Positions 16,453-29,307 of a stretch of DNA of 64,000 nucleotides are shown here, one piece after another. Below the pieces are notes generated by a model. That model did no database searches. It saw only the letters and a list, made by a program, of their open reading frames with translations, and was not told where the DNA came from. How positions within the stretch are numbered: the stretch's first letter is position 1; each line of letters begins with the position of its first letter. Position numbers and translations under genes: made by a program. This DNA comes from Aquaticitalea lipolytica (lineage in GTDB: Bacteria; Bacteroidota; Bacteroidia; Flavobacteriales; Flavobacteriaceae), in assembly GCF_014641635.1 (NCBI RefSeq), contig NZ_BMIC01000005.1:1-64000 (forward strand), in the 5' to 3' direction.

Positions 16453-17313
16453 ATGAAATATCTTAAATTCTTATTGGTTACAATTGCATTTAGTGTTGTA
16501 AGTTTTACTAGAGCTCAAAATTTTGACAATGTAACTATCACTACTACTAAACTGTCTGACAATGTATATATGCTTGTTGGTGCTGGAGGAAATATTGGTG
16601 TTTCAGTTGGTGATGATGGTGTTTTTGTAATTGATGATCAATTTGCGCCTTTAACTACAAAAATTGAAGCTGCAATTAAAACTTTAAGTGATAAACAAAT
16701 ACAATTTTTAGTAAATACTCATTATCATGGCGACCATACTGGTGGAAATGAAAATATGAAAAAATTAGGCACAACAATAATAGCTCATGATAATGTTCGA
16801 AAACGTTTAGAAGATAAGCCAAAAGATGCCTTGCCTGTAATTACTTTTAATGACGAATTGAGTCTACATATTAATGGAGAGAAAATTAGTGTTTTTCATG
16901 TTGAACATGCTCATACTGATGGTGATGCTTTATTATATTTTACTAAAAGTAATGTATTGCATACAGGCGATGTGTATTTTAACAAGCGTTATCCTTACAT
17001 CGATTTGAATTCTGGCGGAAGTGTTAATGGATACATTGAAGCAGTTAAAAAAGGATTAAGTGCTATTAATGATGATACTAAAATTATTCCTGGCCATGGT
17101 GAATTATCTACTAAAGCTGAATACCAATTCTTTTTAGAAATGCTTGAAACGTTAAAAGACAATGTACTTTCAGAAATTAAAAAAGGCAAAACTGAAGACG
17201 AAGTTGCAGCAAATTCTGAAATTACTAAAGTGTATGACGATTTAGGATATAGCTGGAATTTTATTTCTTCTGAAAAAATTAGAAGAACATTTTATTTAAG
17301 CTTGAAAGAATAG
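16453..17313 (+). CDS. Exported MBL-fold metallo-hydrolase
   Basis: A 286-residue metallo-beta-lactamase-fold hydrolase with a signal peptide (residues 1-21), so it probably acts in the periplasm. The zinc-binding motif HYHGDH is at residues 90-95 (H90, H92, D94, H95). Further ligands are visible in 'HVEHAHTDGDAL' , 'HTGDVYFNK' and 'IPGHGELS'. The substrate is unknown. The layout resembles the wide group of metallo-hydrolases that includes glyoxalase II-like and subclass B enzymes, and the sequence does not allow a claim of antibiotic hydrolysis. Its stop lies 3 bases from the end of the convergent remB-like gene. Confidence 0.9.
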   Translation: MKYLKFLLVTIAFSVVSFTRAQNFDNVTITTTKLSDNVYMLVGAGGNIGVSVGDDGVFVIDDQFAPLTTKIEAAIKTLSDKQIQFLVNTHYHGDHTGGNENMKKLGTTIIAHDNVRKRLEDKPKDALPVITFNDELSLHINGEKISVFHVEHAHTDGDALLYFTKSNVLHTGDVYFNKRYPYIDLNSGGSVNGYIEAVKKGLSAINDDTKIIPGHGELSTKAEYQFFLEMLETLKDNVLSEIKKGKTEDEVAANSEITKVYDDLGYSWNFISSEKIRRTFYLSLKE

Positions 17314-17316
17314 GTT

Positions 17317-19425
17317 TTAGTTATCTATATACCAATTAAACAAATCTGTTCGCACACCTACACTTAACCAAACTGTATTTCTTTTAAAAGTGGTTAATGT
17401 AGTAGCATCTGGATTAAAATTTCTGTAGCTAATATTAGTAAACAGTTTTAAGTTACTTACTGGGTTTATGATATAACCTGCTTGTAATTCTGCATTAATG
17501 GTTTTTGTTTTTATCCCTTGTCCTATTTCAACACCACTATCAAATGGTCTGTCGTTATAATCTCTATACAAGTCTCCTCCATAACTAAAATCATCAGTTC
17601 CATCATTAAAATCGAAACCTCTTAATCCTACTATAAATTTTGCATCAGCAAACCAACGTTGGTAATTATAACGACCAATAAGTATTGCTTCTTTAAAATT
17701 GGCTCCCCAAAGATGCGCCATTGGTTGGTTGTTATGCGCATAATTAAGTACAATTGTATTGTGTGAATATGTATATGGTCGTACTTGGTTGTATTCAAAC
17801 TGAAGCAATAAATTATCGACTTTAAATGCATTGTAGTATTTGACGCCTAATTGATACCCAAATTTATTCTTCCAACTTTTGTTTCCTGCTTTAACATCAT
17901 TTAATGAAAACTCGTCTAAAATAAATTGTCCATAAAGATTTACTTTATTATTCCATTTGTATTTTGCTGAAGCTCCAACTACAGCATTACCTGCACCTTG
18001 CCCAGTTTCAAACTCAATGGCTCTAAAGAAAATTAAAGGATTTAAATAATTAATATCAAATCCTCTGTCATTTGTATTATTCCAAATTACAGATTCAAAC
18101 AATCCAATATTTAAGCGTTTAGAAACATTCCAACTCAAATAATGGTTAGCCATATATTTGGTTAAAAAAGCTTTATCAACTACAACCTCTGGACGTACAT
18201 CTTTTAACCACATCCAGGTATTAGTGTATTTAATTTTCCAGAATTTAGTGTTTAATTTTAAAAAAGGATAAGGACTAGTTACATCACTTTGAAATAATGA
18301 ACGATATCCATCTCCTATAAAGTTTTTACCATGACCAAACTGAACATTTATAAATTCTGCTGGCGAATACGATATGTATGCTTCAGCAACAGGATAGTCA
18401 TAACTATCTTCTTTAAATCTTTTAGCGATGCCTCTTCCAGGAATTATTGCTGGATCTGGACCAAAAGCTTTTAAGCTTTCTGCATAATCATTAAAATACT
18501 GCGCAAAACGTCCTTGGCTTTCAAAAACAGATGCTGAAAAATTAAACTTCTTGCCTAATCCTCCTTGCACATAAAACCCTCTAGTATTATTATATGTAGT
18601 ATTAAAATCTGCTTCGGTGTCTTTACCAACTTGTAAATCGAAAACTGGGTCTATTGTAAACCAATAATCTTTACCTTGCACTTGCACCAAATGTTCATCC
18701 CATAATTTCTTGCTCCACCAACTATCGCTACCTTTTATTAAAGCTTTTTTTTCAGCTTCAAAATCGTAATACTTTGCTACTTCATCATAAATAAATGGTT
18801 TTGAAGCTGTATGACTGTTTGTACCTAAACCATTCATATTAGCATCAAATCTCGCATAATATGTGTGTGTAAATGGAATATTAAGTTGACTACTATATTC
18901 CAAATTTTGATACTTTACAATATTCTTGTTTATACTATCAAACTCAGTAGACACTATTTCATCAAGGTCAGTAACTTTTTTTATGGTTTCTGTCTTCTCT
19001 ATTTCGCTCTGCACAGTTTCTGGGTTTACTAAAGGAATTTTTACTGTTAGTGAGTATTGAAAACTAATTGGACGACTATTATAAGTTCCTGGTGTAACTT
19101 TTGGTAAGCTATCGAAAACACGCTTAGTTTCTTCTTTTAATTCATCATATACCGAATCGATATAAAGCACAGAAACACCTCCTTCATTATCAACTTCAAA
19201 AAGTATTTTAATATCTCCTTTATAGTTCTCGTCAAAAACTATTTGAGGTACTTTAAAATTTGAGTAAATATGCTGATTTAATTTATTATTAAAACACGCT
19301 TTAAGATTATCTATAGACTGTGATTCACAATCTGGAAAAACAGGAGGTTTTTCATAGTTATTAATGCTTTGCGAAAAACTATTAAAAGTGATTATCGTAA
19401 AAATGAATAAGAAGAGTTTCTTCAT
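17317..19425 (-). CDS. remB: RemB-like gliding/outer-membrane protein with N-terminal TonB-type module
   Basis: A 702-residue exported protein (signal peptide 1-19, ending NSFSQ). Residues about 27-135 resemble the C-terminal domain of the two TonB proteins encoded next to it, including 'PPVFPDCES' with a second cysteine 10 residues on and 'PKVTPGTYNSRPISFQYSL'. Residues about 175-702 are a beta-rich outer-membrane-type domain ('YYARFDANMNGLG', 'FNFSASVFESQGRF', 'FGHGKNFIGDGYRSLF'), like capsule-assembly Wzi-type barrels. The position near sprA-gcvH-vanZ-tonB matches remB of Flavobacterium johnsoniae as I remember it, where it affects gliding. The name rests on that context and architecture, not on a search. 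Confidence 0.7.
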   Translation of the reverse strand: MKKLFLFIFTIITFNSFSQSINNYEKPPVFPDCESQSIDNLKACFNNKLNQHIYSNFKVPQIVFDENYKGDIKILFEVDNEGGVSVLYIDSVYDELKEETKRVFDSLPKVTPGTYNSRPISFQYSLTVKIPLVNPETVQSEIEKTETIKKVTDLDEIVSTEFDSINKNIVKYQNLEYSSQLNIPFTHTYYARFDANMNGLGTNSHTASKPFIYDEVAKYYDFEAEKKALIKGSDSWWSKKLWDEHLVQVQGKDYWFTIDPVFDLQVGKDTEADFNTTYNNTRGFYVQGGLGKKFNFSASVFESQGRFAQYFNDYAESLKAFGPDPAIIPGRGIAKRFKEDSYDYPVAEAYISYSPAEFINVQFGHGKNFIGDGYRSLFQSDVTSPYPFLKLNTKFWKIKYTNTWMWLKDVRPEVVVDKAFLTKYMANHYLSWNVSKRLNIGLFESVIWNNTNDRGFDINYLNPLIFFRAIEFETGQGAGNAVVGASAKYKWNNKVNLYGQFILDEFSLNDVKAGNKSWKNKFGYQLGVKYYNAFKVDNLLLQFEYNQVRPYTYSHNTIVLNYAHNNQPMAHLWGANFKEAILIGRYNYQRWFADAKFIVGLRGFDFNDGTDDFSYGGDLYRDYNDRPFDSGVEIGQGIKTKTINAELQAGYIINPVSNLKLFTNISYRNFNPDATTLTTFKRNTVWLSVGVRTDLFNWYIDN

Positions 19426-19490
19426 AAGATGGCTACAACCTTTTTATAGGCGTAAGATACTATTTTTTTAAAAATAAACAGCTTACAAAA

Positions 19491-19520
19491 AAACCGCTAT
19501 CTGTTAAAGATAACGGTTTA
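19491..19520 (-). terminator. Terminator after second tonB-like gene
   Basis: AAACCG-C-TATCT and AGATA-A-CGGTTT form an imperfect stem (one mismatch). On the minus strand a run of seven T follows it, just past the end of the 19542-20339 gene. Confidence 0.7.
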
Positions 19521-19541
19521 AATATTTAAAATTGTATAGTT

Positions 19542-20339
19542 TTATTGCACTTGAAATACTATTGGTAAATTATATAAAACATCTACTGGTATGTTTCGTT
19601 GTTTTCCAGGAGTCATTTTAGGTATTTTTGTTGTAAGTCTCAATGCTTCCTTTTCTAATTGGTTATGAGGAGCTCTTGCTCTAACATCTGTAACCATTCC
19701 GTTTTTATCTATCTTAAATGCAACATATATTTTTTGAGTACCACTTAATCCTAAGTCGTGAGCTAACTCTGTATTAAATTTTTTCTGAATAAGTTTAGTT
19801 AGCTTATCAGACATACATTGTAAACGCTCTTCATTTGTTGTTGCAGATTCGCATCCAGGATAAACAGGCACTTTCTCAACACCAATTATACTGAACGGAG
19901 GTTGAATATCCTCAGGAGTTTCAATAGTTGGTTTTAAATCTCCAACATCAGTTGGTTTATCTGTAGTAATATCATCTGGAGTTAAAATATCAGTAATTAA
20001 CTCATCGTTATAATCATTATCAACTGGCTTTAAATTGTTATCAGCTAATTTAACTGCTTTAGGTTTTACTTCTCTTTTTTGAGGCACAGCTTCAAACACT
20101 TTAAATTTATCTGCAAAGTATTCTGAATTTTCATCAATTGGTGCAACTTGTGCTAACTTTGCTAGCTGGGTTTCAAACTTCATTTCAAAAAGCCCATAAG
20201 TTGCCAAAAGACAAAGAATTAAACCCACTTGAAAATAAAGCGTGGAGTTTTTTTGTAAATTTACATCGTGCTTTTGCGATTTCACAATGTTTTTGTTGCT
20301 CTGGCCAGCAACATTCGTTGTGTTTTTTAAATTTTTCAT
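19542..20339 (-). CDS. TonB-like energy transducer, paralogue without proline-rich linker
   Basis: A 265-residue protein with one membrane helix (about 35-51) after a 34-residue cytoplasmic N-terminus, a charged linker and a C-terminal TonB domain (about 157-265). The domain contains 'PVYPGCES', a second cysteine 11 residues on, 'KIYVAFKIDKNGMVTDVRARAP' and 'PKMTPGKQRN'. It closely matches the TonB domain of the next upstream gene. Classical TonB proteins cross the periplasm with a Pro-rich linker; here the linker is acidic and only modestly rich in proline. It probably couples the proton motive force to outer-membrane receptors or to RemB, which is inference. Confidence 0.83.
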   Translation of the reverse strand: MKNLKNTTNVAGQSNKNIVKSQKHDVNLQKNSTLYFQVGLILCLLATYGLFEMKFETQLAKLAQVAPIDENSEYFADKFKVFEAVPQKREVKPKAVKLADNNLKPVDNDYNDELITDILTPDDITTDKPTDVGDLKPTIETPEDIQPPFSIIGVEKVPVYPGCESATTNEERLQCMSDKLTKLIQKKFNTELAHDLGLSGTQKIYVAFKIDKNGMVTDVRARAPHNQLEKEALRLTTKIPKMTPGKQRNIPVDVLYNLPIVFQVQ

Positions 20340-20400
20340 AATACTTATTATTTAGAATGTTAATATTATGATAAAATCGCAATAAGCATACCAAAGTAAA

Positions 20401-20430
20401 AATCCCGTCTAATTAATTTTAGACGGGATT
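20401..20430. terminator. Strong terminator between the two tonB genes
   Basis: A perfect 12-bp stem AATCCCGTCTAA / TTAGACGGGATT with a 6-base loop. A and T runs on the flanks make it potentially bidirectional. It ends the upstream tonB transcript, so the second tonB gene probably has its own promoter. Confidence 0.88.
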
Positions 20431-20456
20431 TTGAATATAATATAAAATGGTATTTT

Positions 20457-21182
20457 TTAGTCTTGTACTTGGAAAAGAATTGGTAATGAATAAGGTACAG
20501 TTACTGCTTTACCTCTTTGCTTACCTGGTTGCATTTTTGGAAGTAATCCAATAACACGTTTTGCTTCTTTTTCTAATCCAGGATGTGGAGCTCTTGCTTG
20601 TACATTAGTAATTTCTCCGTTTTTGTCTATTTTAAAAATAACACTAATACGTTGTTTACCTGATAAACCTAAATCTCCAGCTAATTCTGTATTAAATTTC
20701 TTATTTACAAATTCAGCAATTTTATCAGACATACATTGCTTTTTAGCATTGTTTCCGCTTTCTTTTTCACATCCAGGAAAAATAGGCACATTTTCAATAA
20801 CAGCAAAAGGAACCTCAATGTCTTCCTCTACTTCAACAACTTTTACGTCTTTTACTTTAACGATTTTTTCTTCTTGATTTGTTTCAGTAGACTTTATAAT
20901 AGTTTCTTCTACCTCTTTTTCATCTTCAACAACCTTAATTTCTTCTGGAACTGGTGGTGGTGGAGGTGGTGGTGGTGGTGGTGTTATTTCTTGCTGAGTG
21001 ATTGGCACTTCTTCTTCATCTAACATATCCAGATTAACCATTCCTGTATCAATCTCTTTTTTATCATATGATTTATAGTTTATTGCCAAATTAGTAAGCA
21101 ATAATACTAAAGCCAGACCAACAGCAAAATATAGCGAACTGTTTCTGCTTACATCTGATTTTGGATTTTTTTTCGGTTCCAT
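20457..21182 (-). CDS. tonB: Energy transducer TonB
   Basis: A 241-residue TonB-family protein: cytoplasmic tail, one membrane helix (about 17-36), a run of ten prolines at about 68-77, an acidic/basic repeat linker rich in EVE and KVK, and a C-terminal domain (about 135-241) with 'PIFPGCEKES', 'ISVIFKIDKNGEITNVQARAP' and 'PKMQPGKQRGKAV'. It transmits proton-motive force from ExbB/ExbD to outer-membrane receptors. ExbB and ExbD are not in this window. A near-consensus promoter lies 22 bases upstream. Confidence 0.9.
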   Translation of the reverse strand: MEPKKNPKSDVSRNSSLYFAVGLALVLLLTNLAINYKSYDKKEIDTGMVNLDMLDEEEVPITQQEITPPPPPPPPPPVPEEIKVVEDEKEVEETIIKSTETNQEEKIVKVKDVKVVEVEEDIEVPFAVIENVPIFPGCEKESGNNAKKQCMSDKIAEFVNKKFNTELAGDLGLSGKQRISVIFKIDKNGEITNVQARAPHPGLEKEAKRVIGLLPKMQPGKQRGKAVTVPYSLPILFQVQD

Positions 21183-21204
21183 ATCTTAAACTTGTTTAGG
21201 AATG

Positions 21205-21236
21205 CTAAAATAACCAATAAATTGTTAAAAAAGCAA
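21205..21236 (-). promoter_or_regulatory. Probable promoter of tonB
   Basis: On the minus strand, TTG (21236-21234), a 21-base spacer and TATTTTAG (21212-21205), one mismatch from TAnnTTTG. It lies just upstream of the tonB start at 21182. Confidence 0.55.
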
Positions 21237-21245
21237 ACGATTAAT

Positions 21246-21611
21246 TTATTTTAACTTTAACTTTCTATAGAAAGTAATAATTAGTGCAGCAAAAATAACG
21301 CCAAAAGTGTTTGCTGCTAGATCATTTAAATCAAAAACTCTGGTTTCGGTAATTTTATTTTGTAATATTTCTATTATTAACCCAAACCCAATAGCTATTG
21401 AAGCTGAGATTAAAATTGTATTTGAAATGGTTTTTCTTCTAAAGTAATTATACCATAATAGCATTAATACAAAATAGGCTAAAAAATGATAAATTTTATC
21501 ATCAAACGACGAACCTAAACTTGGAACTTTATTAAGTCTTATAAGACTAGCAACGGTTAAAACGATTGAATAAGTTACTACAAGTAAAAGTTCAAAGTAC
21601 TTATGCACCAA
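21246..21611 (-). CDS. VanZ family membrane protein
   Basis: A 121-residue membrane protein with four hydrophobic helices and the VanZ-like signatures '[17 protein letters not shown]' and '[28 protein letters not shown]'. VanZ-like proteins are widespread and mostly of unknown function; teicoplanin resistance applies only to the Gram-positive founding member. The gene overlaps gcvH by 11 bases and belongs to the conserved sprA-gcvH-vanZ-tonB neighbourhood of flavobacteria. Confidence 0.88.
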
Positions 21612-21981
21612 TTAATGCTTTATAATCGTCAGCAGATAATAAGCTATCAAACTGAGACACATCAGAACATTTTACTTTAATCATCCAACCATCTCCATAA
21701 GGGTCTGAGTTTACTTTTTCTGGTTCATCTTCAAGTGAAGAGTTAAATTCAATTATTTCGCCAGATACTGGTAAAAACAAATCAGATACAGTTTTTACTG
21801 CTTCAACTGTTCCAAAAATTTCTTCAGCCTCTAAAGTTTCGTCAACTGTTTCAACTTCTACGTAAACAATATCTCCTAATTCGCCTTGAGCAAAATCAGT
21901 AATTCCTACAGTAATAATGTCGCCTTCTATTTTTACCCACTCGTGGTCTTTGGTATACTTTAATTGTGATGGTATGTTCAT
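21601..21981 (-). CDS. gcvH: Glycine cleavage system H protein
   Basis: A 126-residue lipoyl carrier protein that shuttles the aminomethyl group between the P, T and L proteins during glycine decarboxylation. The lipoylated lysine is K63 in '[12 protein letters not shown]', and the N-terminal '[13 protein letters not shown]' is typical. The other glycine cleavage genes are not in this window. A perfect promoter sits 28 bases upstream, so gcvH-vanZ are expressed separately from sprA even though they follow it. Confidence 0.96.
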
Positions 21982-22008
21982 CTTAATTGATTATAAAATT
22001 TATGGTAA

Positions 22009-22039
22009 CAAATGTACTTTTTAAAACGATTTAATTCAA
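22009..22039 (-). promoter_or_regulatory. Consensus promoter of gcvH
   Basis: On the minus strand, TTG (22039-22037), a 20-base spacer and TACATTTG (22016-22009). The -33 element starts just 2 bases after the sprA stop codon. Confidence 0.8.
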
Positions 22040-22041
22040 AA

Positions 22042-25000
22042 TTAATTTCCAAAATTATATCGTAAGGTAATTCCAGATCTAATAGTTGTTTGTGGAAAGG
22101 CTGTTGAAATAGCATATTCTGAGAACGAATAATCAAAATAGAATATTCCTGTTAGATTTTTACTAAAAGCATAATCTGCAGAGTATTTTATTCCCCAAAT
22201 GGTTTGACCAGAAGTCACCTGATTGTTTTCTAAATCTAAATATCTAATAATCGTTTTGTTATCTCTTAATGATATATCTGCCTTCATGTTCAAATCACTT
22301 TTTATGATTTGACCTGGCCCAGCCATTTTAGAACGTATTCTTACATCTTTAAATCTATATCCAAGACCTATAATATATTCTTTTCCTTGTATTTCCGTTA
22401 ATAAGTTATTATCGAAACTTAAAGATAAGACTCTATCTTTTCTTATTTCAGTAACTATTTTAACTGAATTCTTCATTTCGAAATCCAATCTAATTAATGG
22501 GCTAAATTGTTCTTCTAAATTTATATTACTATAAAGGTTTTGGCTTTTATAATTACCTGATTGGTCTAAAACATTTGGATTTTGACTTGCATAATCTAAA
22601 GTAGGATCTGCAGGATTAAAATCTAAATTAGTTCGGAATTGGTTAATTGTATAACCTGCTCTATAACCATGAGTTACAGAGAAACGCTTAAAGTTCTTTT
22701 TAAACCAAGCAAACTGCATAAAGCCTGTGTATTTCAACGTCCAGTTAGGAATAGGCACATCTCTAAATGCACTTAATTTAACTTTGTCTGGGTTTGCTCC
22801 TTGGTAAGCAGATAAAAAAGAAGGCAATAATACTGCTTGGCTGTTTTTTCCAAAACCTAAAGGATAGCCTTCGGCATCAACCGCATAGTTACTGTTTCCA
22901 TAAAACTCTCTTGCTAATCGGTTTGCTACTACCAAACGGTTTGCTCTAAAATCTTCAAACGCTGCAGAACGGACTTCATCACTTTTGCTAAATGCTGTTT
23001 TTATTAATGATGTTGAAATATTAAAGTTACCAAAAGTATTTTGGATTAAACTATTATAAGTATCACTTAAGCCATCATTATTTGTATCAGTAGCATTAAA
23101 GTTTTCGGTAAAATTTGATGCATAAGTTCTACTACCTGTAAAATCAATTTTTAAATCTTTAACTAACTCAACATTTGCAGAAAAATCTAGTGTTTTACTA
23201 CTTACTTCTGTGTATTGCTCATTAAAATTAGGATATACTGTTAACCAACCGTTTCTAGCAACTAAATCTCTTATATCACTTTGATCACCAAAAGTATAGC
23301 CAAATGTTGGTTTAAGTGTACCTATAAACCCTGGCGTTCTTAAGTAACCTGGTAAATAATTACCATTATTCTCTCTATAGTTAATTTGAACTCTCTTAAC
23401 CATAGTTAGTATATCTATTGCAGTATTAAATACTTTTGTGCCTGCACTATTTGATGATGAATTAGCAGCTACATTACCTTTCTGCTTTGGTTCTACTTGT
23501 TTTTCATTATTAGAAGGAAGTCCTTTTGGGGCACTACTTCTTGCGTTGTTTCTTTTAGGTTGTTTTTTTGTTAATCCAACATATTTATACAAAGTCTCCA
23601 TATTAAAACTTGAATTAATATTATGAGTCCCTGAACTTTGTATTGAATTCCCTAAATTGTAAGTGTTTGTAACATTGGTATCTGGATCTGTAATTGGTAA
23701 ATTATTATTAAGGTCGGATCCTTTTTGCCAACTAAAATCGCCTGTATATGAATATGTCGCTCTAATAAAATTAAATGTTGGTATTTTATATAAAGGGATT
23801 TCATAATTTAATTGTAATTGCTGACTTTGAATATTTGGATCACCAAAATCGAAGAAACCATCCCAAACATTCAGTGTTGGGTCTTGCCTGCCATTGATTA
23901 CATCATCTACAAAATAATTACGAACAATATTGCTATTAGATGCAGTAAAGTTTAAGCTTAATGCTTTTGTTAGATTATAATTTATTGCATATTGAAAATC
24001 AAATCTATAATTTCTTCTGAATAATTCTTCTAAGCCAATATTCCCTCCTGTTAAATCTACTTCTCTAAATTTTTGTTTATTAAACTGACGTAAAATGTCA
24101 GTGTTTACAGAAAAACTAGTTGGTATAGGATTAAAATTAAAGTCTTTAAGTATTTTCCAATATTTGTTTCTGAAAATAGAATCGTTTTCTTTAAATGGCT
24201 CAATTACCATTGGATTGAAACTGTAGTTATAATTAACTCCTGTTCTAATTTTTTGGTCTAATGAATTTTCAATTTCAAAATCTCTATGCTCAATTTTATT
24301 ATATGAATAGTTAAAAGTTAAATTTTCAACATCATAAAAACGAGGTTTAGCATCTCCTGTTCTTTGCTTTCTAACTCCAATAAAATTAATACTTTGTCGT
24401 TTAGTGTAATCTTCAGATTGTGTTTTAATGGTTTCACTTTCCTGATCTGAAGTAGCGGCATCTAAACGAGATTGTAATTTAATATCTCTATAAAATTGAT
24501 CGTATTCAGGCGTAATAAGTTCTTCACTTTGACCATAATTGAAAGGGATTTGTACTCCCCATTTTTTTGGTAAAAGTTGTCCTAAATTTATATTAGTCAC
24601 AACATCGTACTGTTTTACATCTTCTCGACTTCTCTCGTTTGGTCTTTGCTCAATTCCACCAAATCCTATTGTGCTTCTTCGACCTGTTGCACTTATATCG
24701 GCAAAGTCTGCAATATTAGTATCCATGCTTAAAACTGCTGCCCAACCTCCTTGATTATCTAAATCGGCCAATCTAAGTTCATTAAACCAGATTTCTCCAC
24801 AAGCATCCATACCTCCTTGTCCAGGGTTTTTAACCCCAACCATTAAAACTCTTATATCTCCAAAATTTGGATTTCCTTTAATTGCCACACGTTGAACACC
24901 CATTGTATGTGGATCAAATTCGCCAACTTCAGTCAATCCTGAATCGGTAACATCATAAAATGTAGGATCAATGTTTGCTAAAGTTCCATTAGAAATACCT

Positions 25001-28000
25001 AATGATTTTATTTGTTCTAAAACTTCTAGTTTTAAGTTAATCTCATTAGCTTCTGGCCAAACATCAGTTGGTGACAATGTTCCTGTAGACACTTGCAATG
25101 GCACTTCAATTTGATAAAAATTTTGAGTAAAATCATTACCCATTCTAATAAAACCAACCAACTCACCATCAGACAAATTAATTCCTTCTTGAGGCTCAGC
25201 GTGAATAAACATTCTTAGCTTGTTATACTGACGCATGTCTATGTTTATATTTTTAAAGACTCCTCTAGAGTCTTCAGGCTCAAGGTCACATACTTCGACT
25301 ACTAATGATTGTTCGTTTTGTCTTATGATATTATTGTTATTGTTCAGTTGCTCTAAAACAACTCCAGGAGGTAACACATAATTTCCTTCGTTTTGTTGTA
25401 ACCCAATAATCCCAACATTTAATTCAGTATTATCGTTGTCATTATTTGGTTCGTCATCTAAAGTTAATCTGTAACGTCTCCAATCGCTTCTTACTAAATC
25501 TAGGGTTGCAAACCTTAATACTGTTGATTGAGAAAACTCTTTTAAATATAATCTGGCAAATCTAACTGAACGAATATCGGTAATCCCTCCTATTGCTCTA
25601 GTTGGGCTAGCAATTGGAATTCTAAATTGGTACCATTTGACCTCACGTGTTTGGCCATTAGGCAGAGTTACGTTTTTAACTTTTATATCGTTTATTTGAG
25701 TGTTATTTGGATCAGAAAGTGTAGCAGGCGTAATATTAATTTCATACTCAAAATAACTATCTATAGTATTCATTGTATTATCTCTATTAATATCTTCTAC
25801 ATCAGGTTGAGGAGTAGAACCTCTATTGGTATCTGTAAATGTATCTGGAGAGTTACCCTCTAATCCATTATACAGTTTATAACGCTCAAAAATATCACCA
25901 TCTGCTTGTAAAAAATACTTGTAATTGTCTTTAGATGGATCTTCTAATCCTGCAAAAGGAGTATATCTTGGATCTCCAGGTACAGCTTCTTCTGAATCAT
26001 CATAACCATCATAACCAACATCTTGATTTCTTCGTTGTTGACCTGTAGTTGAAAACGCATAAATTAAAGATTGATTTCTTGGTACAATACTTCCATAAAC
26101 AGTTGGAGCTAAAAAACTAATATCTCCATCTTCAGGCAACCCGTTCTCGAATTGTTTTTTTCCGTCTTTTAAAATATCTTCTGAAATATTACCAAGATTA
26201 ACTGTAAGTTTTCCTCCTGGGTTTGTAGTATTATCTAAAAATGGGTCTTGTACCCAAAACTCTATATACTCAACATTAGCTTGCTCAAAATCTGTAGACG
26301 TTATTTGTCTGGTAATACCAGCCCAACTATTGTTAGGTGCAGTTAAAGTACCTGTTGCTATATCAATGTTATTTGTTTGAAAATTATAAGGACCTCTTTC
26401 GGTTGGATAATATGCTAAATCTAATGTTGGAATTACAGTGCTTTGTCCTTGCACTACATCTATTTGAGGAAAAACTTCATCAATAAAAACTCTCCTTGTA
26501 TATAAATTAGAAACATCATCATCACTTATACCACTAGGTCTTTGATTACTATAAAAAATAGGATCTACTGTGTACCAGTTAAGCATAGCTCTGTTAAATC
26601 CGTTTTCAATACCATTATCATCTTCATTTGCTGTTATACCAAGCTGTTTTGGTCTACTAGATAAAAACCAAGATTGAGGTGATAATAAATCTATAGAGCC
26701 TTGTGTGCCTTCAAAATCATCAACATAAGCAGTTGCTTCTCCTTCAAAATCTGTGCCCTTTGGTGCTCCTGGCGCCAAGTATGCAAACTCTCCTCTTACA
26801 GATAAGTTTGATGGCACATCAGTATCAATATTTGGTAATTTATTAGCTAATCGAGTTAAAAAAGGAACTTCGGTTGAATAATTTCCGTTAAGTCCAAATA
26901 TGGTATTGTTTATAGATTCTGTATTGTAATTTGCTTTCTGGGTAATTGGTCGCTCATTCAAATTTAAAAACGTTGCTCCTAATACAAATTTTTCATTAAA
27001 CTGATGCTCTACATTAATCCCTGTAAAACGACGTGTTTGTTGTCCAAATACTGCATTGTTTTCTACTGAAACATTTATTGGAGTATTAGATGCTTTTAGG
27101 GCTTCATCTAAAATTTGTACACGTCCTAATTGATAATTTACTGTATAATCAATACCTTCAACTAATACTCTTCCTCCTGCTGTTACTTTAACAGAGCCTC
27201 TTGGCACATTAAAAGCTCCAATAGGAATACCATCTCCTCCTGATGATTTATAACGCCCTTTTAATTGAAATTTATTTTTTTCACTTTCATCTAAAGCTGC
27301 TGTTTTAGTGGCTTTATAAAGAATGTCATATACATATTTTTCTTGATTAGGATTGGTATAAACATCTTGCTCGTAGTCTGCTGCATTGTTATTTGGGTTA
27401 CCATCATCATCTAAAATATCAAATAAATATCGTCCAAAAGGTTCAACTTTTGTAAAGATTATTTTTCCATTTTGAATTAAAACTGTTTGTCCAGGAACAA
27501 AATCGAAAAAACCGTCACCACCTGTTTGAGGATCATTATTAAAGTTTAACCTATCTAAATGAAATAATCTTATTAAAGGTGTATCAACTATTTCGGAATC
27601 ATCTGTCGGGTCTATTGGTGTGTTACTGTTAAATGTTGGAAATGTAGTTCCATCAACAGGTTTTATATAGTTTAGAGGAGAGGCTTCAGTATAAAATATA
27701 TTTAATTTAAAATCGTCTTGACTTAATTGATAAGCTCCAGTGTCATAAATATTTTTCATCATCAAATCCCAAATAGGCTGATCTACACTAGTTATGGCAC
27801 TTTTAAGCATTTTCAACACTAAGCTATTGTTATTTATTATAGTATTCCCAGTGTTAGTATCTGTAGAAGTATCTGTAGCATTCACACCATCATTAGCAAA
27901 TTCACCAACTTGATAAACTGTACCACCAACTGTATACTGAAAGGCAACTGCTAAAACTTCGTCGTTTAACAATCGTTGATTTAATGATATATATCCCAAT

Positions 28001-29307
28001 TGTGAATGTAGAGTATAATCTGAACCTTGATTAAGTTTTCTAGCATTTTCAAGTTTACCAAAATCAAATCCTTCGTTGGCAGGAATTAAAATACCTTGCT
28101 CAACTGTAGTTATATCTCTAACTGCTGCAGTTAATTGAGAACCTGGTCCACCAATGTTTGTTGGGTCAAATGCGTTGTTTGGATTGTTTGGTAAGGCTCC
28201 TGGTTGCAAAATGTTTACAGTGGAACCAACTATTGAAGACTCTCCTAAATCTTGAAAAGCTGTAATATTTCTAACATTATTTGTTTGATTAGTTCTATTA
28301 GTTACCCAAACTTCAATACGTGTTATTTGAACATTAGTTTCTAAAAAAGGATAACGCAACATTGCTGCATCATATTTATTTCTAAAATATTGTGCTAAGA
28401 AGAAGTGTCTATTTTCGTCATAGTCTCTTGCAAAAAAAGAAAATTCTTCTAATGTCCCTCCTCCTTGTGCAACCACAGATCGTGATTGTGACTTTTGTTC
28501 AGAAAATACAGCTGTCACTCTTGTTTTACCAAATTGCAGCTCTGTTTTCACACCAAATAAACTTTGTGCTCCAGTAATTAACGAACTATTAAGTGGCATA
28601 CTAACATTACCAACTTCTATCTTCCTGATAATATCATCTTCAGTTGGTGTGTATTCTAATTTAATTAGATTCTGAAAATCGAATGTTGATTGTGTATCAT
28701 AGTTAGCTGTAACCTGAAGTCTTGTTCCAACTTTACCTAATAAACTTAAACTTATACGTTGATTAAAATCAAATGTGAAATTGCTTCTGTTACGCGGAGA
28801 AAATGTTGGGTTGTCTTGTTTTGTGAACAAAACCCCTAAATCCATTTCAACAGAACCTTGTGGTATCACTTCAATAGTATTACCTCCAAAAACAGATTCA
28901 AAAAATCCTGAATTAACATAAAACTCTGGAAGAAGATTTTTTTGTTCTTCTTCAGTTCCGTCCTTTTTTCCTGAAGCAGCATCAACTTTTTGTTTGTAAT
29001 ACAAACGCATATTTTCTTGCAAAACCAACTTTTGATATTCGGCAGGTGTAAGTATAATTGGATAATTAATATTAAACTTCCCAACTGTTTCAGTGTAAAT
29101 ATATCTGTCTGTTATTGGGTCGTATGTGTATTTTGAAACAATACTATTAGGATTTGGCATATTTATATTACCAAATGCAAAACTTGTAATAGTAGTATCT
29201 TGAGGTGTTGTTGGATCTTGAGAAAAAACTAAACTACTAAAAAGTGTAGTACTTATTAGCAGTATATATTGAATTGATTTTGAAAAAGTATAGTTAGTTG
29301 TACTCAA
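22042..29307 (-). CDS. sprA: Type IX secretion translocon / gliding protein SprA (Sov)
   Basis: A 2421-residue outer-membrane protein, the normal size for SprA. It forms the very large beta-barrel through which type IX substrates leave the cell and is needed for gliding in flavobacteria. The signal peptide is at about residues 1-29 (ending LVFSQ). Typical segments are 'NPTFSPRNRSNFTFDFNQ', 'VTANYDTQSTFDFQNLIKLEY' and 'YLAPGAPKGTDFEGEATAYVDDFEG', followed by long barrel strands ending 'TIRSGITLRYNFGN'. It starts 4 bases after ruvA and has no promoter of its own that I can see. Partner T9SS genes (gldKLMN, porV) are not in this window. Confidence 0.97.
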   Translation of the reverse strand: MSTTNYTFSKSIQYILLISTTLFSSLVFSQDPTTPQDTTITSFAFGNINMPNPNSIVSKYTYDPITDRYIYTETVGKFNINYPIILTPAEYQKLVLQENMRLYYKQKVDAASGKKDGTEEEQKNLLPEFYVNSGFFESVFGGNTIEVIPQGSVEMDLGVLFTKQDNPTFSPRNRSNFTFDFNQRISLSLLGKVGTRLQVTANYDTQSTFDFQNLIKLEYTPTEDDIIRKIEVGNVSMPLNSSLITGAQSLFGVKTELQFGKTRVTAVFSEQKSQSRSVVAQGGGTLEEFSFFARDYDENRHFFLAQYFRNKYDAAMLRYPFLETNVQITRIEVWVTNRTNQTNNVRNITAFQDLGESSIVGSTVNILQPGALPNNPNNAFDPTNIGGPGSQLTAAVRDITTVEQGILIPANEGFDFGKLENARKLNQGSDYTLHSQLGYISLNQRLLNDEVLAVAFQYTVGGTVYQVGEFANDGVNATDTSTDTNTGNTIINNNSLVLKMLKSAITSVDQPIWDLMMKNIYDTGAYQLSQDDFKLNIFYTEASPLNYIKPVDGTTFPTFNSNTPIDPTDDSEIVDTPLIRLFHLDRLNFNNDPQTGGDGFFDFVPGQTVLIQNGKIIFTKVEPFGRYLFDILDDDGNPNNNAADYEQDVYTNPNQEKYVYDILYKATKTAALDESEKNKFQLKGRYKSSGGDGIPIGAFNVPRGSVKVTAGGRVLVEGIDYTVNYQLGRVQILDEALKASNTPINVSVENNAVFGQQTRRFTGINVEHQFNEKFVLGATFLNLNERPITQKANYNTESINNTIFGLNGNYSTEVPFLTRLANKLPNIDTDVPSNLSVRGEFAYLAPGAPKGTDFEGEATAYVDDFEGTQGSIDLLSPQSWFLSSRPKQLGITANEDDNGIENGFNRAMLNWYTVDPIFYSNQRPSGISDDDVSNLYTRRVFIDEVFPQIDVVQGQSTVIPTLDLAYYPTERGPYNFQTNNIDIATGTLTAPNNSWAGITRQITSTDFEQANVEYIEFWVQDPFLDNTTNPGGKLTVNLGNISEDILKDGKKQFENGLPEDGDISFLAPTVYGSIVPRNQSLIYAFSTTGQQRRNQDVGYDGYDDSEEAVPGDPRYTPFAGLEDPSKDNYKYFLQADGDIFERYKLYNGLEGNSPDTFTDTNRGSTPQPDVEDINRDNTMNTIDSYFEYEINITPATLSDPNNTQINDIKVKNVTLPNGQTREVKWYQFRIPIASPTRAIGGITDIRSVRFARLYLKEFSQSTVLRFATLDLVRSDWRRYRLTLDDEPNNDNDNTELNVGIIGLQQNEGNYVLPPGVVLEQLNNNNNIIRQNEQSLVVEVCDLEPEDSRGVFKNINIDMRQYNKLRMFIHAEPQEGINLSDGELVGFIRMGNDFTQNFYQIEVPLQVSTGTLSPTDVWPEANEINLKLEVLEQIKSLGISNGTLANIDPTFYDVTDSGLTEVGEFDPHTMGVQRVAIKGNPNFGDIRVLMVGVKNPGQGGMDACGEIWFNELRLADLDNQGGWAAVLSMDTNIADFADISATGRRSTIGFGGIEQRPNERSREDVKQYDVVTNINLGQLLPKKWGVQIPFNYGQSEELITPEYDQFYRDIKLQSRLDAATSDQESETIKTQSEDYTKRQSINFIGVRKQRTGDAKPRFYDVENLTFNYSYNKIEHRDFEIENSLDQKIRTGVNYNYSFNPMVIEPFKENDSIFRNKYWKILKDFNFNPIPTSFSVNTDILRQFNKQKFREVDLTGGNIGLEELFRRNYRFDFQYAINYNLTKALSLNFTASNSNIVRNYFVDDVINGRQDPTLNVWDGFFDFGDPNIQSQQLQLNYEIPLYKIPTFNFIRATYSYTGDFSWQKGSDLNNNLPITDPDTNVTNTYNLGNSIQSSGTHNINSSFNMETLYKYVGLTKKQPKRNNARSSAPKGLPSNNEKQVEPKQKGNVAANSSSNSAGTKVFNTAIDILTMVKRVQINYRENNGNYLPGYLRTPGFIGTLKPTFGYTFGDQSDIRDLVARNGWLTVYPNFNEQYTEVSSKTLDFSANVELVKDLKIDFTGSRTYASNFTENFNATDTNNDGLSDTYNSLIQNTFGNFNISTSLIKTAFSKSDEVRSAAFEDFRANRLVVANRLAREFYGNSNYAVDAEGYPLGFGKNSQAVLLPSFLSAYQGANPDKVKLSAFRDVPIPNWTLKYTGFMQFAWFKKNFKRFSVTHGYRAGYTINQFRTNLDFNPADPTLDYASQNPNVLDQSGNYKSQNLYSNINLEEQFSPLIRLDFEMKNSVKIVTEIRKDRVLSLSFDNNLLTEIQGKEYIIGLGYRFKDVRIRSKMAGPGQIIKSDLNMKADISLRDNKTIIRYLDLENNQVTSGQTIWGIKYSADYAFSKNLTGIFYFDYSFSEYAISTAFPQTTIRSGITLRYNFGN

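Follow-up and report, generated by a model that had tools for sequence, protein, structure and literature searches.

The window analysed here, a 64,000-nucleotide stretch of Aquaticitalea lipolytica DNA, belongs to contig C5; the whole genome measures 3.14 Mb. Its minus strand carries a run of a sprA-like gene, gcvH, a VanZ-like gene, tonB1, tonB2 and a RemB-like gene (hereafter remB, encoding RemB). Beyond remB lie an opposite-strand gene for a metallo-beta-lactamase-fold protein and then ctaB- and cox3-like genes; the names sprA, ctaB and cox3 are those that we presume to apply. Judged from its sequence and predicted structure, RemB combines a Wzi-like barrel of the outer-membrane type with a TonB C-terminal domain (TonB_C; hereafter the module) that directly follows its signal peptide. 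TonB itself is normally a rod that carries energy outwards from the inner membrane. The features of the locus are as follows.

17317–19425, minus strand: remB-like gene, 702 amino acids (aa); open reading frame, with 80 orthologs kept (68–86% identical)
19372–19425, minus strand: signal peptide, residues 1–18, identified by eye in the sequence; lacks a lipobox cysteine and is followed by no evident membrane anchor
19027–19356, minus strand: TonB_C module, residues ~24–133, from Pfam, genome search, fold and hhalign
19327–19329, minus strand: Cys33 codon, Cys in 110 of 110 modules
19294–19296, minus strand: Cys44 codon, Cys in 110 of 110 modules
18892–19026, minus strand: linker, residues 134 to ~178; mean column identity 0.41 over 134–172
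17320–18891, minus strand: Wzi-like part, residues ~179–702, modelled as a helical stretch and then a beta-barrel; VIA match 2ynk
19491–19519, minus strand: terminator-like hairpin from a hairpin scan, 12 pairs (4 G–C) and then a T run, between tonB2 and remB
19542–20339, minus strand: tonB2, 265 aa, with C-terminal TonB_C at ~19545–19892 (PF03544, 8.2e-8)
20457–21182, minus strand: tonB1, 241 aa, with a Pro-rich linker and C-terminal TonB_C at ~20460–20810 (PF03544, 1.7e-9)
21246–21981, minus strand: VanZ-like gene and gcvH, conserved upstream neighbours, from Pfam scan and locus comparison
22042–29307, minus strand: sprA-like gene, 2421 aa, its name presumed and not derived by family search; similarity was used to match it across loci

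The module was recognized in the original prediction by a pattern, P-x-FPxCE, a second cysteine and a closing PK(M/V)(T/Q)PG, said to recur in three neighbouring genes, and we find it in all three. RemB reads P28-V-F-P-D-C33-E, C44 and PKVTPG (residues 108–113); TonB1 has PIFPGCE, a cysteine and PKMQPG, and TonB2 has PVYPGCE, a cysteine and PKMTPG. The spacing from the first cysteine to the second is 11 positions in RemB and 12 in each TonB, leaving 10–11 residues between them. As single BLASTP comparisons, the module matches TonB1 and TonB2 at 1e-15 and 3e-15 with 29–30% identity. A genome-wide search with the module gives its strongest TonB match to a third TonB on contig C3 (6.8e-19), followed by the two neighbours (6.7e-12 and 2.1e-11), and further retrieves an M56 protein and short exported-looking proteins.

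Profile comparison, the check that had been proposed for this identity, confirms it. Alignment of the module profile with that of 12 TonBs (hhalign) gives a probability of 99.6 and an E value of 3.3e-24, and 80 of 81 ortholog modules match PF03544 (TonB_C) at E ≤ 0.1, the best at 7e-8. On the window's own RemB the PF03544 match is weak, with E 0.026 at full length (15.4 bits against a cut-off of 24.6) and E 0.0013 for the module alone, also below the cut-off; among seven further orthologs scanned whole, three are at or over the cut-off, three are under it and one has no match. Speaking against the identity, an hmmsearch of PDB sequences with the module profile returned no TonB chain; the six matches that it gave at E ≤ 10, with E values from 0.0012 to 0.13, were to PUF60 chains and a PPR protein, and we attribute them to chance. 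A PDB sequence search with full RemB gave nothing at E ≤ 1, and no NCBIfam model matched the window's RemB, four orthologs or two module-less relatives. That the likeness to TonB is itself a chance or convergent motif would agree with the sub-threshold Pfam score and the PDB search, and is hardly credible against the hhalign value, the 80 of 81 TonB_C matches and the predicted fold.

This fold is of the TonB/TolA type, in agreement with the original prediction. Modelled alone from an alignment of 81 RemB sequences with no TonBs in it, the module reached a predicted local distance difference test (pLDDT) score of 92.9. VIA ranks 1–23 are all TonB/TolA domains (Z 8.7 to 4.3), headed by 6i97_D with the sole Z over 8 (8.7; root mean square deviation (r.m.s.d.) 2.3 over 87 residues), and the first 15 Foldseek matches, of which one reaches E ≤ 0.001, are TonB-family domains if the TonB paralogs FusB and HasB are included. 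RemB residues ~24–133 are thus, by sequence and model, a complete TonB C-terminal domain. The module resembles TonB_C of Pseudomonas aeruginosa TonB bound to FoxA (6i97) in predicted fold and core residues, and the neighbouring TonBs in its PxFPxCE-like entry motif and closing PK-x-x-PG. Unlike TonB, it is N-terminal (residues ~24–133 of 702) rather than C-terminal behind a Pro-rich spacer, it is acidic where TonB is basic, and it is without the PGKQRGK and SLPI motifs of the TonBs compared. Its placement is as had been described: inspection by eye of sequence and model puts it after the signal peptide and before the barrel-modelled part, with no later hydrophobic helix ahead of the barrel that could be an inner-membrane anchor. 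Residue Q19 is invariant across the column alignment of 81 RemB sequences.

The rest of RemB is modelled as a helical stretch and a barrel (mean pLDDT 66.6, predicted template modelling (pTM) score 0.59). In VIA, a re-alignment of 998 chains taken from the Foldseek list, the best match for residues 180–693 is the capsule-assembly outer-membrane protein Wzi (2ynk; Z 22.8, r.m.s.d. 4.0 over 355 residues), followed by AlgE (Z 18.8). The Wzi family profile PF14052 is passed over its cut-off by the RemB ortholog of genome G148 (33.6 bits) and by barrel relatives in G360 and G413 (3 of 12 genomes); the window's RemB differs from the Wzi family in giving no PF14052 match. Pfam and NCBIfam scans at E ≤ 1 found no T9SS (type IX secretion system) C-terminal sorting domain in it. 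That absence, and the modelling of the C-terminal part as an outer-membrane barrel, make it very improbable that RemB is a type IX-secreted, adhesin-like protein. Genome papers list it as such: in the extracts of PMC4891872, remB (Fjoh_1657) stands as adhesin-like and under T9SS secretion, and in those of PMC6801697 it is called adhesion-like.

TonB_C joined to a Wzi-like barrel is a real, conserved domain architecture, and a new combination of known kinds. To our knowledge, Wzi has no TonB-type domain. Signal-transducing TonB-dependent receptors carry a small alpha/beta STN domain at the N terminus, behind the signal peptide and on the periplasmic side of an outer-membrane barrel. RemB resembles them in domain placement; it differs in that its domain is TonB_C and not STN, and its barrel is Wzi-like and not a plugged 22-strand receptor. 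TonB_C also occurs outside classical TonB in M56 (BlaR1-type) proteins, at their C termini, and in short exported-looking proteins of the same and related genomes; unlike RemB, those examined are not joined to an outer-membrane barrel. They include a 176-aa TonB_C protein with a signal peptide by eye and no anchor (L183:3033-3563, on G000:C7) and a 155-aa one near an M56-TonB_C protein (L182:2020-2487, on G000:C1). Exported-looking proteins of relatives with no evident anchor have one TonB_C domain (143 aa) or two in tandem (358 and 363 aa; together L220:1646-2737, L221:1848-2924 and L224:1914-2345), and a 1079-aa protein combines VIT, VWA-like and TonB_C domains with weak TPR matches (L173:1741-4980).

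We followed the architecture through 296 genomes of the order and 395 of the phylum. RemB is present in 35 of the 50 genomes of family f1, the window's family, and among the matches listed all 35 start at residue 23 or before, whereas the barrel matches listed outside f1 in the order all start at residue 172 or later; the same split holds among the matches listed in the phylum genomes. The 80 named module-bearing loci are titled with flavobacterial genera, Flavobacteriaceae, Flavobacteriales or, less precisely, Bacteroidia or Bacteroidota. GldJ was considered as a gliding marker and dropped as non-discriminating, being found in 14 of 14 tested f1 genomes that lack RemB (15 in all, G167 left out).

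Twenty module-less loci were drawn from the better matches outside f1, with 7.9–18 kb read per locus. Their proteins have 526–555 aa, with a signal peptide that runs almost directly into the barrel part, and none of the 20 shows a TonB match within the piece read; G008 has a tonB ~9 kb upstream of its module-less remB, just beyond that piece. Four of these loci (L114, L115, L127 and L129) fell within the neighbour scan, the other 16 outside it, and its seven scanned neighbours comprise three glycosyltransferases, Wzy_C, Polysacc_synt_2, a DegT aminotransferase and an exosortase match just below the cut-off. The likeness to Wzi as best VIA match is accompanied, in these four loci, by polysaccharide-type genes beside the barrel-only relatives. 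In four genomes outside f1 (L168, L169, L170 and L171), the order sprA-(gcvH)-vanZ-tonB is kept with remB module-less or elsewhere, so this sprA–tonB synteny is independent of the module.

Phylogeny, called for in the original prediction, separates the module from both neighbours. All 17 RemB modules in the tree form one clade (support 99/99) outside tonB1 and tonB2; with few columns, an unsettled bootstrap and a stem branch of 1.75, the tree supports the clade and not its exact sister. Omitted beforehand were repeat copies of genes from overlapping pieces (L146, L152, L161 and two rows of L175) and, for thinning, RemB modules L003, L017, L078, L093 and L104 and TonB rows L009, L017, L042 and L056. 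We therefore reject the possibility that tonB1 or tonB2 was recently copied into remB. We also reject fusion by plain deletion between the last tonB and remB, since deoC intervenes: at the two loci of genus g2 that were read at length, deoC still separates the module-bearing remB from vanZ (G148) or tonB (G064), which a bare deletion does not fit. G008 has the order sprA-gcvH-vanZ-tonB-deoC, then further genes (two scanned: Wzy_C and a glycosyltransferase), then module-less remB-ctaB-cox3. G014 has sprA-vanZ-three tonBs-deoC and, ~50 kb on, remB-ctaB-cox3, ~38 kb between the pieces read being uncovered. Because the module is confined to f1 among the matches listed and the module-less relatives read are barrel-only, insertion between signal peptide and barrel explains the pattern better than loss elsewhere, and most likely the Wzi-like barrel gained TonB_C once, in f1.

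What the module has kept and changed was read from 110 RemB modules (the window's included) and 166 TonB domains from the same remB loci. Core positions are common to both sets. The cysteine pair, noted as conserved in the original prediction and taken there as a hint of a disulfide, is invariant in 110 of 110 modules and also in the 166 TonB domains, and Cys33 and Cys44 probably form a stabilizing disulfide. The K-Q-R of the TonB PGKQRGK motif is replaced by T-Y-N (0.94, 0.99 and 0.94), giving the modules a conserved signature of their own, P-x-T-Y-N-G; Y115 is Tyr at 0.99 in the modules and Gln at 0.99 in TonBs. Of the 110 modules, 19 have the proline of SLPI, whose frequency in TonBs is 0.99. 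Net charge averages −3.5 for the modules and +7.7 for the TonB domains. Mean column identity is 0.70 for the module, 0.41 for the linker and 0.84 for the barrel.

We favour, at a probability of roughly 0.56, the reading that the module serves for docking in the periplasm and has no motor of its own, being carried on a Wzi-like barrel and binding a putative partner. Such barrels have their two termini in the periplasm, so the module would hang under the barrel on the periplasmic side, where TonB-type strand pairing may connect the barrel to a partner in the periplasm or the inner membrane. Having no transmembrane anchor, the module could not itself be driven by ExbB/ExbD, and a motor role is unlikely. 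The lost basic charge, the lost PGKQRGK and SLPI motifs and the P-x-T-Y-N-G signature suggest that the module now binds something other than the partner of TonB. The barrel's job is probably the handling of surface polysaccharide, and any gliding role would go through that.

Alternatively, the module could act passively, as an anchor that binds peptidoglycan or as a plug that closes the barrel at its periplasmic opening, with no other protein as partner. The module sits just ahead of the helical stretch that precedes the barrel, and the anchor-less exported-looking TonB_C proteins of related genomes, single or tandem, fit a generic periplasmic binding domain. The poor conservation of the linker (0.41) is more in keeping with a tethered domain than with a plug, however, and the RemB-specific Y115 suggests a specific surface; we regard a passive module as unlikely.

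The original prediction proposed that the module could plug, gate or swap with the TonB domains encoded next door. At least one tonB lies beside remB in 76 of the 80 named loci; there is none within ~6 kb upstream in L025, L026 and L044, and L031 ends at a contig edge. Loci L042 and L056 carry three tandem tonB genes instead of two. In genus g2, tonB is in place at 2 of 22 loci, and the other 20 show vanZ and no tonB in the short upstream flank read. Moreover, 17 of the 22 g2 genomes hold no other module-profile match (E ≤ 0.001) covering the cysteine region: the other matches all start at profile position 27 or later, the cysteines being at positions 14 and 25, although incomplete genomes could hide some. 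Six such domains, from G148 and G211, were read by sequence and have a cysteine-free entry motif, mostly FPGG-like.

In these 17 genomes the module is no less conserved. At a matched barrel identity of 0.79, module identity is 0.66 in the 17 g2 modules versus 0.61 in 88 non-g2 modules; at 0.88 it is 0.82 versus 0.72, and at 0.70–0.72 it is 0.58 versus 0.55 (the pairs are non-independent). Net charge is −2.3 and −3.7, respectively. Retention and undiminished conservation in g2, together with the hairpin before remB, indicate that the constraint on the module seems not to come from these TonBs. The predicted exchange with the TonBs next door is thus unsupported on several counts: the lack of another match covering the cysteine region in 17 of 22 g2 genomes that still conserve the module, the three loci without tonB in the upstream flank, the hairpin and the module's own clade.

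A broader form of pairing has the module bind the C-terminal domain of a TonB, neighbouring or other, and either pass proton-motive force to the barrel as to TonB-dependent receptors or act as a TonB decoy. The adjacency of tonB in 76 of 80 loci and the opposite mean charges (−3.5 and +7.7) favour it, as do the cysteine-free TonBs present where Cys-type TonBs are gone; TonB domains are also able to dimerize in crystals. Set against these are the kept, no less conserved and still acidic (−2.3) module of the 17 g2 genomes, the absence of tonB from the ~6 kb upstream in L025, L026 and L044, the hairpin between tonB2 and remB, and an origin of the module outside tonB1 and tonB2. On balance, we judge pairing with TonB unlikely.

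Several observations weigh against the docking domain on a Wzi-like barrel. The loss of charge and motifs is indirect evidence for a changed partner, and the docking partner is still hypothetical. The charge contrast is drawn from remB loci only, and some TonB domains outside them are acidic as well. As g2 keeps cysteine-free TonBs, a TonB partner of some kind can still be entertained. The barrel model is only middling (pLDDT 66.6, pTM 0.59), and Wzi leads only by VIA, the Foldseek top 50 for the barrel being general porins and AlgE. A PF14052 profile search of the window's genome gave no match, and hmmscan found no PF14052 in the window's RemB, in three relatives lacking the module or even in the G148 protein noted above as exceeding the cut-off.

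More speculatively, TonB_C could be a general exported adaptor in f1, used alone, in tandem, in M56 proteases, in the VIT/VWA protein and on the Wzi-like barrel, with RemB, as a surface-polysaccharide barrel, docking to, or pulled by, an energized TonB network through contact between TonB domains. We consider this quite unlikely; if true, it would be a new way of powering an outer-membrane protein other than the plugged, TonB-box-bearing receptor.

Signals around the genes are sparse. Within 17000–22100, terminator-like sites number 3 against 1.9 expected in shuffles (s.d. 1.5), only a slight excess, and a promoter scan is at chance level (27 found, 24.6 expected). The metallo-beta-lactamase-fold gene (16453–17313, plus strand), between remB and ctaB, encodes a protein with a signal-like start and is present in only some related loci; its best NCBIfam match, SoxH_rel_PQQ_2, is below that model's cut-off.

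The link of RemB to gliding or the type IX system rests on its gene name and on SprA synteny. The order sprA-gcvH-vanZ-deoC-remB in G148 fits the numbering of sprA (1653) and remB (1657) in the extracts of PMC4891872, a comparison with Flavobacterium johnsoniae by gene order alone. In those extracts and in those of PMC6801697, RemB appears as an adhesin-like gliding gene with no mechanism given, and the extracts of PMC12204202, a survey of force transducers, hold no mention of RemB that we found. Among the titles and abstract openings returned by literature searches, none concerned a TonB or Wzi domain in RemB, which is no proof of absence from print.

The loss of Cys-type TonBs in one genus amounts to a natural experiment that speaks against the simplest pairing model. 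In RemB, a force-transducer domain would have moved onto an outer-membrane protein, and the reading of RemB as a Wzi-like barrel whose TonB domain lies in the periplasm offers a concrete, testable picture of this protein, one that points to surface polysaccharide and not to adhesion.

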